Source of the DNA: a virus
IMG/VR virus record: IMGVR_UViG_3300028392_001365
Location: 1-37,439 of that record
Direction: 5' to 3' (one strand)
DNA: 37,439 nt
Part shown: positions 14,115-34,668 of the stretch, in pieces
Layout of the letters: each line of letters begins with the position of its first letter
Position numbering within the stretch: position 1 is the first letter of the stretch
Notes under the pieces: model-generated
Seen by the model: the letters and a program-made list of their open reading frames with translations, nothing else
Told to the model about the DNA's origin: nothing
Database searches by the model: none
Position numbers and translations under genes: made by a program

Positions 14115-15110
14115 ATGAAGGTACTAATAACAGGAGTCGCAGGTTTATTGGGATCTAGTCTTGCAGATTGGATAATAGAAAATAAACCAGAAATAGAGGT
14201 AGTAGGTATCGACGATTTATCAGGCGGATACTTAGAGAATGTAAATCCAAAGGTTAAATTCTGGCAGATGAATCTAGTAGAACATCCTATTGAGAATTGT
14301 TTTGCTACCAACGAATTTGACTATGTATTCCACTTCGCAGCTTACGCAGCAGAAGGTTTAAGTCCATTCATTAGAAGATACAACTACGATAACAACTTAG
14401 TAGCAACAGCAAGAGTGGTAAACAACTGCATTAAGTACGATGTCAAGAGGTTGATCTTTACTTCTACGTTAGCAGTATACGGTCATGGTTACGGTGGTAT
14501 ATTTGATGAAACACAAGTGCCTAAGCCAATAGATCCATACGGAGTTGCTAAGTATGCTTGCGAGATGGACATTCAAATTGCAGGCGAACAACACGGTTTA
14601 GATTGGACTATCATTAGACCTCACAATGTATACGGTCGTAAGCAGAATATATGGGATAAGTATCGCAATGTCTTGGGTATTTGGATGTATCAACAGATGA
14701 ACGGAGAACCAATGACAATCTTTGGAGACGGTACACAAACAAGAGCATTCAGTTGTATCGACGACATAGTCGAACCATTGTGGAATTCTGCTGTAGAACC
14801 AAGAGCATCTAAAGAGATTATCAATTTAGGAGGAGTAGAAGAGTGGACTATAAACGATGCAAATAAAGTATTAAGAGATATTATTAAATACGGAGCAGAG
14901 TATCAATACAAAGAAGGAAGACACGAAGTAAAGCATTCTATTCCTACATACCAAAAATCAGAAGACATTCTTGGTTTTAAACACAAGACTACATTAGAAG
15001 AGGGATTATATGATATGTGGTTATGGGCTCAACGTCAACCAAATAGAGATAGATTCGTTTGGCCTTCATACGAATTAGACAAAGGCATTTATTCATTTTG
15101 GAAAAAGTAA
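14115..15110 (+). CDS. NAD-dependent sugar-nucleotide epimerase/dehydratase
   Basis: The 331-residue extended SDR has VLITGVAGLLGSSLADWI and an acidic residue after strand 2 (VGIDDLSGG), which favours NAD. FTSTLAVYG supplies Ser/Thr 117-118 and DPYGVAK gives Tyr142 and Lys146. FGDGTQTRAFSCIDDIV is typical of UDP-glucose/UDP-glucuronate 4-epimerase-like members. The exact substrate cannot be read out; C4 epimerisation of a UDP-hexose is the simplest guess. It is the fourth sugar-nucleotide SDR of the island. Confidence 0.88.
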   Translation: MKVLITGVAGLLGSSLADWIIENKPEIEVVGIDDLSGGYLENVNPKVKFWQMNLVEHPIENCFATNEFDYVFHFAAYAAEGLSPFIRRYNYDNNLVATARVVNNCIKYDVKRLIFTSTLAVYGHGYGGIFDETQVPKPIDPYGVAKYACEMDIQIAGEQHGLDWTIIRPHNVYGRKQNIWDKYRNVLGIWMYQQMNGEPMTIFGDGTQTRAFSCIDDIVEPLWNSAVEPRASKEIINLGGVEEWTINDANKVLRDIIKYGAEYQYKEGRHEVKHSIPTYQKSEDILGFKHKTTLEEGLYDMWLWAQRQPNRDRFVWPSYELDKGIYSFWKK

Positions 15111-24629: not shown

Positions 24630-25235
24630 ATGAGATTAAGCAAAAACGATAAGACATTTATTGAGATAGTAAAAAGCGGTTGTAAGAAACACAAGATATC
24701 GTGTAAGCTTAAAGAAGTTAAGTACTTAAAACCAATTCCATCTGTAAGATGCACTGGATATTTTGATGATGAAGGTAAGACTTTACAAGTAGCAATGAAA
24801 CAGAAAGATTCATTCGAAATATTGGTACACGAATACAGTCACCTTACACAATGGGTAAATAAGATACCGGTTTATATGAAAGCAAATAAGTATCTGTTCG
24901 CTGTAGACGCTTGGATATCAGGTGAGAAGTTCTCTAATTCTATGGTAGATGCTGCGATACAAGGCGTAATAGATCTAGAATTAGACAATGAGAAGAGAGC
25001 TGTTAAGTTAATAAGTAAATACAACTTGAGTATTGATAAAGAAAGCTACATAAAGAAAGCGAATGCTTATTTGTATTTTTACCATTGGATGAGGAAGACT
25101 AGAAAGTGGAGCAGTCCTAATAACTTGCCTTATAGGAACAAGACGATTATCGCTGCGATGCCAACCACATTTAGAGGTAAGTATGATAAGTTACCAAAGC
25201 GATTTGAAAAGCTATTTAAACAAGAAAATATATAA
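24630..25235 (+). CDS. Putative HExxH metalloprotein 1
   Basis: This 201-residue protein carries HEYSH at residues 67-71 within the helix FEILVHEYSHLTQWV, the zinc-binding pattern of zincin metallopeptidases. A strand (GKTLQVAMKQ) precedes it, as in minimal peptidase domains such as SprT/IrrE relatives. A third ligand is not certain; Glu residues in the following helices (VIDLELDNEKRA) could serve. It is the first of three HExxH genes within 2.6 kb. Activity is inferred, not shown. Confidence 0.75.
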   Translation: MRLSKNDKTFIEIVKSGCKKHKISCKLKEVKYLKPIPSVRCTGYFDDEGKTLQVAMKQKDSFEILVHEYSHLTQWVNKIPVYMKANKYLFAVDAWISGEKFSNSMVDAAIQGVIDLELDNEKRAVKLISKYNLSIDKESYIKKANAYLYFYHWMRKTRKWSSPNNLPYRNKTIIAAMPTTFRGKYDKLPKRFEKLFKQENI

Positions 25236-25236
25236 T

Positions 25237-25473
25237 ATGAAAGCGATATTAGAATTTGACTTAGATGAAGGACAAGATAAGATAGCGCATTTAAGATGTG
25301 TTAAAGCAGTAAACATGGCGATAGCACTATGGGACATGGATCAATACTTACGAGGACTTATTAAATATGGAGAGCTAGACGATGCTATTCATAAAACACT
25401 CGAAGAGACCAGAGATAAACTAAAGGAAATCATGAGTGAGAATTCAATTGACTTAGACGAATTATTAAATTAA
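25237..25473 (+). CDS. Conserved small phage protein (78 aa)
   Basis: I take the ATG at 25237 (MKAILEFDLDEGQDK), one base after the preceding stop, rather than an in-frame ATG at 25183 inside the previous gene. The pattern AILEFDLDE, ALWDMDQYLRGLIKYG and RDKLKEIMSENSIDLDE matches a family of short proteins I know from many unrelated phages, whose function is not established. The protein is mostly helical. Confidence 0.82.
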   Translation: MKAILEFDLDEGQDKIAHLRCVKAVNMAIALWDMDQYLRGLIKYGELDDAIHKTLEETRDKLKEIMSENSIDLDELLN

Positions 25474-25477
25474 AGTT

Positions 25478-26041
25478 ATGAAGATAAATAGAAAACGAGT
25501 TGCGTGGTACCTACAGAATATCAGAGCAAAGAACAAAGAACTAACAGATGAGCAGTTAATAGATAAGTTAGCAACATGGATGGAAACGAATCCTGAATGC
25601 ATAGACATAGACGGTGTATCCCATCCAGGTCGTTACTACTATTCTACTGTTGGTTACGGCATCTTCAGTTTATTGGGAGAAAGATACAGAATGGGTAGAG
25701 TAGAAATATTCGACAAGCAAAACGAAAGTGGATACCAAATAGCAGAAGGATCTTATTGCATGCCGTTTGTATCCGCTAATCAATTCGAAGACTTCATAGA
25801 GTCTATGGAAACGGATCTGCCTATAAGCATAAACATAGGGTCTCATGATTGGTGCGAACAAGCTTGCGCTATAGACTTAGGCTTCGAAAATGCAGAAGCA
25901 ATGAACGATAAAGCAAATGTCAAAGCGTATCGTGATAAGCTGAACGACGAATACGCAGTAGAAAATGGATACAAGGATTTTGCAGACTTATTATCTAAAA
26001 GTAAATGGAATAAACCAAAACAAGATGAAGATACAATATAA
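25478..26041 (+). CDS. Uncharacterised phage protein (187 aa)
   Basis: The leader is TAAAGTTATG. The protein opens with a basic helical segment (KINRKRVAWYLQNIRAKN). A mixed alpha/beta region with three Cys follows (EGSYCMPFVSANQFEDFIE, GSHDWCEQACAIDLGF), then a helical acidic end. No catalytic motif is recognisable. Its 3' end overlaps the next gene, which starts at 26025 in another frame. Confidence 0.78.
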   Translation: MKINRKRVAWYLQNIRAKNKELTDEQLIDKLATWMETNPECIDIDGVSHPGRYYYSTVGYGIFSLLGERYRMGRVEIFDKQNESGYQIAEGSYCMPFVSANQFEDFIESMETDLPISINIGSHDWCEQACAIDLGFENAEAMNDKANVKAYRDKLNDEYAVENGYKDFADLLSKSKWNKPKQDEDTI

Positions 26042-26711
26042 CATAAAAGAAATTAAACCAAAGGTATTTGCCGTGATAGTACCAGATAGATATCACAGAG
26101 CAATGTTATTCATGAGAGTACAAGAGTTCTACGAGTCTCCTAACCCTAAATTCAGAGGCAAAGCTTTTGAAATATGGGACTACATAGAGTGGTACAGCAG
26201 AAAACACTCCGATAATTTTAGTTACGCAGCAGATTGGGTAGGATTTAACTTTCCTTTAAAGGTGGCAGAAAAGTGTTACGATAAAATGGGAGAGAGGTAC
26301 ACATACTACACTCCTTACGATGCAACTATGGGTAAGATATTAGATCAGATTAGAGAGACCATTAATTTAAAGTACGGACCTAAATCCAAAGCATATATCA
26401 TTGGAGTAGCAGACACCGTATCTAGTACATTTCAACACGAATTATGTCATGCCTATTATCATATAGATAACAAGTATAAGACAGAAGTGGACGCCATTAC
26501 AAAAGAGATAGATCCTAAAACATACAACAGAATGTGTAAGAACTTAACAGATATGGGATATACGGAGCAGGTATTCTCTGACGAGATTCAGGCATACACG
26601 TGTATCGATTCAGATTACTTTGAATTCAATAACAAAATACCAGGAGGTAAATTAAACAAACTATCAAAGAAGTATAAACTTATATATGAAAAATATATCA
26701 ACCAAAAATAA
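26025..26711 (+). CDS. Putative HExxH metalloprotein 2
   Basis: I use the ATG at 26025 (MKIQYNIKEIKPK), giving 228 residues and 17 bases of overlap; the in-frame ATG at 25965 would deepen the overlap. The core is TFQHELCHAYYHID, with HELCH at residues 138-142, a further His146 and Glu154 (KTEVDAI), an arrangement that can complete a zinc site. The N-terminal half has basic and aromatic segments (FRGKAFEIWDYIEWYSRKH). It resembles phage zincin-like proteins. The peptidase function is inferred from the motif. Confidence 0.76.
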   Translation: MKIQYNIKEIKPKVFAVIVPDRYHRAMLFMRVQEFYESPNPKFRGKAFEIWDYIEWYSRKHSDNFSYAADWVGFNFPLKVAEKCYDKMGERYTYYTPYDATMGKILDQIRETINLKYGPKSKAYIIGVADTVSSTFQHELCHAYYHIDNKYKTEVDAITKEIDPKTYNRMCKNLTDMGYTEQVFSDEIQAYTCIDSDYFEFNNKIPGGKLNKLSKKYKLIYEKYINQK

Positions 26712-26808
26712 AGATAAAGAGAAGCTTCGTCTTAAGAAGTACGAAAAGGCCAAGAAACAAGCAATAGCAAATTTAACTAAAACAGAAAGAAAAGCATTAG
26801 GTTTATGA
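26686..26808 (+). CDS. Tiny lysine-rich protein (40 aa)
   Basis: A 40-residue ORF starts inside the end of the HELCH gene and stops on the ATGA overlap with the next start at 26805. It fills an otherwise noncoding gap of about 95 bases. The product is strongly basic and helical (STKNKDKEKLRLKKYEKAKK, then LTKTERKALGL), which would fit nucleic-acid binding. The overlap signature supports it being real. Confidence 0.6.
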   Translation: MKNISTKNKDKEKLRLKKYEKAKKQAIANLTKTERKALGL

Positions 26809-27200
26809 GCAATGAAAAAAATTGGGTAACAAGAGCCACGGCACAGAAGATATTGGATTGGTGTTACTTTACCTATGGAAGGTCTAAAATTAACGGCGCA
26901 TATCCAGCCCTAGAATTTAGGAAGCCTGATTATCTTTCAGGCGACGACTACGGATACTACGATGAGATAGATCAAACCATATTTGTTAATAGAGAGATTC
27001 ACCATGATCTAGCCGAGCTTGTTAAGACAATCATACACGAATACACACATTATGTTAAACATTCTATGCACGAGTATCAGATCTTGGCCAAATATCTGCC
27101 ACACCATCAGAATCCTTTGGAGAAGGACGCTTTAAAGGTAGAGAGAAGAGATTATAAAAAATGTCTTAGATTTCTTAAAAAAGAATACAACATTGGTTAA
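26805..27200 (+). CDS. Putative HExxH metalloprotein 3
   Basis: This 131-residue protein has HEYTH at residues 78-82 within VKTIIHEYTHYVKHSMHEYQ, preceded by a short strand (DQTIFVNREIHHD). It is compact, and the later NPLEKDALKVERRD could supply a third metal ligand. This composition matches small SprT-like or IrrE-like metallopeptidase domains in phages, and it is the clearest of the three HExxH proteins. A structural zinc role remains possible. Confidence 0.8.
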   Translation: MSNEKNWVTRATAQKILDWCYFTYGRSKINGAYPALEFRKPDYLSGDDYGYYDEIDQTIFVNREIHHDLAELVKTIIHEYTHYVKHSMHEYQILAKYLPHHQNPLEKDALKVERRDYKKCLRFLKKEYNIG

Positions 27201-27223: not shown

Positions 27224-27439
27224 ATGTTAATTTACGACCAACTAGATAAAATAGCGGAAGAGGCGCAGATTCCTACCGAGCTACACGAATACCTACACAT
27301 AAACAGTAGAGAGGTTTGGGTAGACACAATGGTTTTGCTAATAGATACTGGGCAGATCAAAGTAAATGCAAGACAAATCAAAGTTTTAGCAGAGAATTGG
27401 GAAGATTTATTGTGTAGGAAGTATTCAAATTTAAACTAA
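27224..27439 (+). CDS. Uncharacterised small phage protein (71 aa)
   Basis: The protein is helical and acidic (YDQLDKIAEEAQIPTELHEY, SREVWVDTMVLLIDTG). It may open the short unit of genes to 28265, as an ATATTTAT motif lies just upstream. The next gene starts 4 bases after its stop. No known domain. Confidence 0.75.
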   Translation: MLIYDQLDKIAEEAQIPTELHEYLHINSREVWVDTMVLLIDTGQIKVNARQIKVLAENWEDLLCRKYSNLN

Positions 27440-27443
27440 AACG

Positions 27444-27737
27444 ATGACGATTTTACAAACAACGGTTGATAGCGCTAGTGTAGGTTCCGCTTTTATGCAA
27501 TACGGCATATTGGGAATATTAGCATTTTTATTAGGTTACTTTGCATGGCAACAGTACTTAAGACTTGTTAAGAAGAACGAACAGCTAGAAGAAAAGATAG
27601 ACAAGCTACAAGAGCAGATGTTAAAGATAATTGTAGAAGAGAGAGACAGATTAGATACCCTAATAAGGGATAACACAGCCGCTCTACAAGAACTTCAGAG
27701 AACTATATACAAATACATGGTTAAAAGCAAGGAGTAA
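27444..27737 (+). CDS. Membrane-anchored coiled-coil protein, holin-like
   Basis: The 97-residue protein has one hydrophobic segment (about residues 15-33, YGILGILAFLLGYFAWQQY). It is followed by a long heptad-like helix (KKNEQLEEKIDKLQEQMLKI, then a second DRLDTLIRDNTAALQEL stretch). The N-out single pass with a charged cytoplasmic coiled coil resembles BhlA-type holins and other phage membrane-anchored factors, so lysis is one option. It shares one base with the following gene. Confidence 0.72.
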   Translation: MTILQTTVDSASVGSAFMQYGILGILAFLLGYFAWQQYLRLVKKNEQLEEKIDKLQEQMLKIIVEERDRLDTLIRDNTAALQELQRTIYKYMVKSKE

Positions 27738-33768: not shown

Positions 33769-34668
33769 ATGAATTTAGGATACGCGTGCATCAATATGAC
33801 TATGCAGAAACAGGTTAGTATTAATAGAACAATGATGAAACGCACCTTCGAAGCCAAAGGAATGGACTACGTCTCAGATTTGACCCTTCTAAATTCAAAA
33901 GATATCATTAAGATATTAGAGTGGAACAGACAGCACGGAATAAAACTGTTTAGGTTATCTTCAAGCATAATTCCATGGGGAAATAACATAGACATAACCG
34001 AACTAAAAGACTACAAAGAGATCAAGTCTGAATTAAAAAAGGCCGGAGATTTTGCCAAGTTTTGGGATATGAGAATCACATGTCATCCTGGTCCATTCGT
34101 AGTACTTACTTCGCCAAATGACTCAGTAGTCGATAACGCCATATCAGATTTAGAAATGCACGGCAAACTATTCGATATGATGGAGCTTTCACAAACGCCT
34201 TACAATAAGATCAATATACATTGTAACGGAGTATACGGAGACAAGATCACCGCAATGGATAGATTCTGCGAAAACTTTAAGAGACTATCTAACTCAGTAC
34301 GTAGTAGACTAACAGTAGAGAACGACGACAAAGCATCCATGTACTCCGTTAAAGATCTAATGTACATACACAAGAAGATAGGAATTCCTATTGTATTCGA
34401 CTACCATCACCACCAATTTTGTACTGGAGATATGACCGAGCAAGAAGCGTTAGAGCTAGCTGCGACGACTTGGCCGAAAGACATAAAGCAACTAGTGCAC
34501 TACTCAGAATCAAAAGCATTACATGAAAACAACATTAAAGAAAAACCACAAGCTCATTCGCTATATATTAATGCCATCCCCAATACATACGAGTTGGATG
34601 TGGACATTATGGTTGAAGCAAAAGCAAAAGAGTTAGCAATACTACCATTTTTAGAATATGAAAAGTAA
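33769..34668 (+). CDS. uvsE: UV-damage endonuclease (UVDE)
   Basis: The 299-residue protein matches UVDE, a TIM-barrel repair nuclease that nicks DNA 5' of UV photoproducts. Visible signatures are GYACINMT at the N terminus, FRLSSSIIPW, and TCHPGPFV (His106). Others are INIHCNGVYGDK (His151), LTVENDD (Glu184), FDYHHHQF (Asp211, His213/His214) and VHYSES (His244), the metal-binding residues of the family. Length is normal. It may protect the phage genome from sunlight damage. It overlaps the next gene by 11 bases. Confidence 0.94.
   Translation: MNLGYACINMTMQKQVSINRTMMKRTFEAKGMDYVSDLTLLNSKDIIKILEWNRQHGIKLFRLSSSIIPWGNNIDITELKDYKEIKSELKKAGDFAKFWDMRITCHPGPFVVLTSPNDSVVDNAISDLEMHGKLFDMMELSQTPYNKINIHCNGVYGDKITAMDRFCENFKRLSNSVRSRLTVENDDKASMYSVKDLMYIHKKIGIPIVFDYHHHQFCTGDMTEQEALELAATTWPKDIKQLVHYSESKALHENNIKEKPQAHSLYINAIPNTYELDVDIMVEAKAKELAILPFLEYEK

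Follow-up and report, generated by a model that had tools for sequence, protein, structure and literature searches.

A tight cluster of three conserved HExxH proteins with graded zincin-like features in a probable fragment of a T4-like phage genome

The 37,439-nucleotide stretch of DNA analysed here (the window; IMG/VR virus record IMGVR_UViG_3300028392_001365, probably a fragment) encodes three HExxH proteins, P1, P2 and P3, on the same strand and within 2.6 kb. We consider the chances about even that these are accessory gluzincin-type peptidases, each most likely cutting a particular host protein, with different substrates. The first-pass annotation had already reported this cluster, and the open reading frames and motifs are as it described; its view of all three proteins as zincin-like holds to differing degrees. 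For P1 this is well supported by the predicted model, the fold neighbours and sequence conservation, and for P3 it is fairly supported by weak family matches and a remote similarity to P1, while P2 is a putative zincin, with the motif and the predicted secondary structure behind that assignment. The genes and motifs concerned are:

24630..25235, forward strand: P1, 201 aa, zincin-like; HEYSH codons at 24828-24842
24978-24980 (E117) and 24990-24992 (E121), forward strand: codons of the invariant Glu residues in the curated P1 alignment
25183..25473, forward strand: small ORF separating P1 from P2; probably begins at the internal MKAILEF, the start used in relatives
25478..26041, forward strand: 187 aa protein between P1 and P2, no function assigned
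25965..26711, forward strand: P2, putative zincin of a separate family; HELCH codons at 26436-26450
P2 N-terminal motifs: RxQEFYESP and FxYxxDWxGFNxP
26580-26585, forward strand: conserved DE of P2
26805..27200, forward strand: P3, 131 aa, minimal zincin-like protein; HEYTH codons at 27036-27050
27120-27122, forward strand: codon of the conserved Glu of P3 (E106)
27224..27439, forward strand: 71 aa protein with HEYLH; conserved neighbour of P3, motif not conserved
27444..27737, forward strand: 97 aa, with a coiled coil and what looks like a membrane segment; conserved 3' of P3

For P2 a start at 26025 seems more likely, as several relatives begin there. Many of the close relatives have the 187 aa protein, and so, at 62% identity, does one distant relative, L077. 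The 97 aa protein has 35 distinct homologues, with many distant relatives lacking P2 among the carriers, and shows weak spanin-like matches; tblastn searches of known phages gave no match for either this protein or P3. Elsewhere the window contains a long sugar-nucleotide/glycan cluster carried by the phage (2059-19160), with an aminotransferase alongside glycosyltransferases and nucleotide-sugar epimerases, and a gene for a UvdE-type UV endonuclease (33769-34668; Pfam E 9e-68). P1-P3 are probably co-expressed during infection from their one tightly packed, same-strand block. Promoter-like sites in this block are no commoner than in shuffled sequences and the promoter/terminator scan was uninformative, so that the operon structure is read from the gene packing alone.

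The case is strongest for P1, which is very likely a gluzincin-type zincin. In its predicted model (pLDDT 94.6) the HExxH sequence is inside one helix (residues 61-76) with the conserved downstream Glu on a later helix; this placement of the HExxH residues on a single helix, implied by the zincin reading of the first-pass annotation, is seen in the models of both P1 and P2. A Foldseek search of the PDB with the P1 model gave nothing at E<=0.001, and structural re-alignment of the Foldseek candidates with VIA-align put zincins in the lead: IrrE (3dte; Z 6.6, rmsd 3.5 over 100 residues), ArdC (6sna; Z 6.5, rmsd 2.7 over 86 residues), PprI and SPRTN (6mdx; Z 5.9), followed by lethal factor, BlaR1, YfcM, CapP and minimal gluzincins. 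It is the consistency of this list that argues for a zincin fold, since the single Z-scores (maximum 6.6) are modest. Among the 35 members of the curated P1 alignment, 22 match the putative metallopeptidase family DUF6782 of Pfam at E<=0.01 and none matches Peptidase_M78 (PF06114) at that level. The HExxH is present in all 72 distinct P1 homologues, and both E117 and E121 downstream of it are invariant in the alignment (35/35).

The three proteins had been described as otherwise dissimilar, and for P1 and P3 this has to be revised: a profile-profile comparison aligns them with a probability of 91%, P3 being a remote relative of P1. At E<=0.01 in Pfam, 23 of the 27 P3 members match DUF3920, nine match DUF6782 and two match PF06114; P3 itself also matches a metallo-protease family of PHROG (E 5.8e-4). 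The P1 and P3 proteins of the window itself fall below the curated cut-offs of DUF6782 and DUF3920. All 47 homologues of P3 retain HExxH, and E106 is invariant in its curated alignment (27/27).

For P2 the description as dissimilar stands, profile comparison giving a confident alignment with neither P1 nor P3. There was likewise no convincing match in Pfam, NCBIfam or PHROG, and P2 is an independent and largely undescribed family. Homologues of P2 are also found in 16 bacterial and archaeal assemblies, where the copies may be cellular or viral. The predicted model is confident, with the HExxH inside one helix (residues 154-167, full-length numbering) and the conserved downstream Glu on a later helix. 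Foldseek searches gave nothing at E<=0.001 in the PDB and, among viral models, a single Megaviridae environmental protein (E 3.9e-6). In the curated alignment, which left out the members without HExxH, D206-E207 (full-length numbering) are present in 57/57 sequences. About half of its 20 invariant columns belong to the N-terminal motif pair, where R31, Q33, E34, D70, W71, G73, F74 and N75 are all invariant (57/57). HExxH occurs in 84 of 88 homologues; two of the four exceptions (L138 and L286) are truncated or mis-extracted, and the others, L278:5923-6576 from a Woesearchaeota assembly (HDIAH) and L279:2014-2685 from an Omnitrophota assembly (NELAN), are real substitutions in proteins that keep the N-terminal motif intact. 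The second site of P2 may therefore be no less important than its zincin site. The lack of a clear PDB fold match for P2 and these two cellular relatives with an altered or lost HExxH count against our main reading. Perhaps, then, P2 is not a peptidase at all, but works as an enzyme or a binding protein chiefly through the RxQE[FY]YESP / DWxGFNxP module, its HExxH being a structural metal site. The invariant N-terminal residues and the absence of fold and family matches favor such a function. Nevertheless, the near-universal HExxH and the order of strand, HExxH helix and Glu helix are as in zincins, and the weak VIA-align rows (none with Z>=5) include the zincins anthrax lethal factor, BACCAC_01431 and collagenase peptidase domains, all at Z<3. 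We regard the non-peptidase reading of P2 as unlikely, if still quite plausible.

With respect to distribution, a nucleotide search for the trio in known phages gave no match, and all three genes are present in each of the 15 close relatives. Homologues of both P1 and P2 are carried by the Xanthomonas jumbo phage XacN1 and by a 642 kb uncultured phage, and those of P1 also by the Stenotrophomonas phages RAS14 and CM1; the annotation given to the P2 homologue of XacN1 (L108:8019-8663), ABC transporter ATP-binding protein, is probably wrong. At distant P1 loci, P3 is the next gene in 23 of 65 cases. A T4-type portal gene is found in a 174 kb relative (G001) and in 17 other large records, and its presence in the former marks the lineage, one of large, uncultivated phages, as T4-like.

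The neighbourhoods of P1 and P2 in other phages raise a different possibility, namely that these two are peptidases that process virion proteins or further proteins of the phage, acting in some lineages with a MoxR AAA+ ATPase and an HExxH-bearing vWA co-chaperone. In one lineage (L252/L255-257) P1 is between tail tube and baseplate genes, next to the tail-tube/sheath genes, and in XacN1 it is near the portal and prohead-protease genes; both locations speak against our main reading. Moreover, a protein of ~700 aa with HE[GA]SH and a CobT/vWA-like C-terminal part is paired with a MoxR-like ATPase, and P1 is directly downstream of this pair in L239, L241, L259, L265, L267, L270 and others, as is P2 in L130 and L133; the gene order in L241 is vWA-MoxR-P1-P2. 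Examples of the pair beside P1 or P2 are:

L241:2459-5922: HE[GA]SH-vWA protein and MoxR-like ATPase
L259:2339-5888: HE[GA]SH-vWA protein and MoxR-like ATPase
L130:2023-5751: HE[GA]SH-vWA protein and MoxR-like ATPase

A profile search found the pair in 8 of 41 large records, in six of which P1 or P2 adjoins it or is one gene away, a result to be read as an association and not as a rate, because the records lack full independence and some were picked for carrying P1 or P2. A role in virion assembly has been proposed for the MoxR AAA+/metallopeptidase-vWA pair of jumbo phages (Iyer et al., PMC7824862). The MoxR/vWA and tail-gene neighbourhoods make this reading a serious rival. However, the same profile search found no such pair in either the window or the 174 kb relative, the other 33 records have no vWA partner although many have P1 or P2, and in several large relatives the T4-type portal gene is about 44-112 kb along the contig from P1-P3; on balance, we think this reading rather unlikely. 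Somewhat less probable is a further scheme, in which P2 would found a new family of zincin-like proteins that has another conserved site, for catalysis or binding, besides HExxH. In this scheme a MoxR-vWA remodelling machine of phages would have P1 and P2 as protease arms that can be detached, and some phages, including this one, would have kept the arms without the machine.

The HExxH motif by itself is only moderately surprising, and it is conservation that decides. The window has 72 non-overlapping ORFs on the forward strand that are 40 aa or longer (11,992 aa in total). Five of the encoded proteins contain HExxH against a mean of 0.49 expected from shuffles, and at least three such proteins occurred in 34 of 2000 shuffles. 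The HEYLH protein at 27224-27439 was considered as a fourth zincin and rejected as a chance motif, its Glu not being conserved and HEYLH being lost in 16 of 25 homologues; the HEVKH in the NAD-dependent epimerase encoded at 14115-15110 is a chance motif as well. Purifying selection acts on P1, P2 and P3, with median dN/dS values of 0.08, 0.10 and 0.04, respectively. That the three motifs also arose by chance, as in these two further ORFs, in proteins unrelated to peptidases deserves very little credence in view of the conserved HExxH, the invariant Glu that follows it and the resemblance of the P1 fold to zincins, and for P1 and P3 the conservation already makes it very unlikely.

Returning to the reading of P1-P3 as host-directed peptidases, all three are small and consist of a single zinc-peptidase-like domain of gluzincin type, in which HExxH is followed by a Glu. 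They are probably cytosolic since they have no obvious export signals, and would be accessory genes of the large T4-like lineage. They would bind zinc and be proteolytic, and each would most likely cleave one host protein, be it a regulator, a repressor or a defence factor, in the way that IrrE and CapP cleave the repressors with which they are partnered. The patchy distribution fits accessory better than structural genes, and so does the separation from the portal gene seen in several of the large relatives. Such an accessory, patchy distribution in turn fits host or defence substrates, which seem more likely than virion proteins, and agrees with what has been proposed for the zincins of jumbo phages (PMC7824862). 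It is already published that jumbo phages carry zincins in several copies, with cleavage of host proteins as their proposed role; new here are the P2 family, the tight trio, and the location of P1 or P2 beside the MoxR ATPase and peptidase-vWA pair in relatives, which ties both to this module. The trio adds to the zincin-like proteins of phages three named examples that are conserved, small and open to testing, and if host defence proteins are indeed what they cut, they would constitute a new set of counter-defence proteases.

Among the closest known systems are the SprT-like and ArdC-like metallopeptidases of jumbo phages, present in 1-3 copies per phage with a patchy distribution; a survey argued for host-protein targets from this sort of pattern (Iyer et al. 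2021, PMC7824862). In view of these copy numbers, reported for the SprT-like enzymes, it was too strong to call a cluster such as ours uncommon. The two sets are alike in their patchiness and in having several copies per large phage, and differ in that P1-P3 are all within 2.6 kb and fall below the Pfam SprT-like cut-off (PF10263: 13.5 bits for P2 against 25.6, P1 and P3 not being among the matches listed). They also differ in their presumptive ligands. The third ligand of the SprT family is a His, whereas none of the P1, P2 and P3 families has a conserved His after HExxH, a conserved Glu being in its place. The jumbo-phage MoxR/metallopeptidase-vWA pair, for its part, adjoins P1 or P2 in several relatives and was not found by searches of the window and the 174 kb relative. 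Among the papers searched, none was found on phage minigluzincins or HExxH jumbo-phage metalloproteases; the moraphage paper has a putative peptidase in its core gene list, with nothing that could be linked to P1-P3 (PMC12619734). Sequence and profile searches of PDB sequences gave no credible match for any of the three families, and a defence library gave only weak, unconvincing matches. At the level of structure, ArdC of plasmid R388 can be aligned with P1 over the 86 residues given above. ArdC has an additional N-terminal domain, whereas P1 is a single domain of 201 aa. Finally, the ImmA/IrrE-type zincins IrrE/PprI and CapP have HExxH plus Glu, as in P1, and the best alignment of the P1 model is with IrrE; in comparison with these proteins, no HTH or sensor domain is apparent in P1-P3, and in P1 the conserved Glu follows HExxH at a long distance, 46-50 residues.
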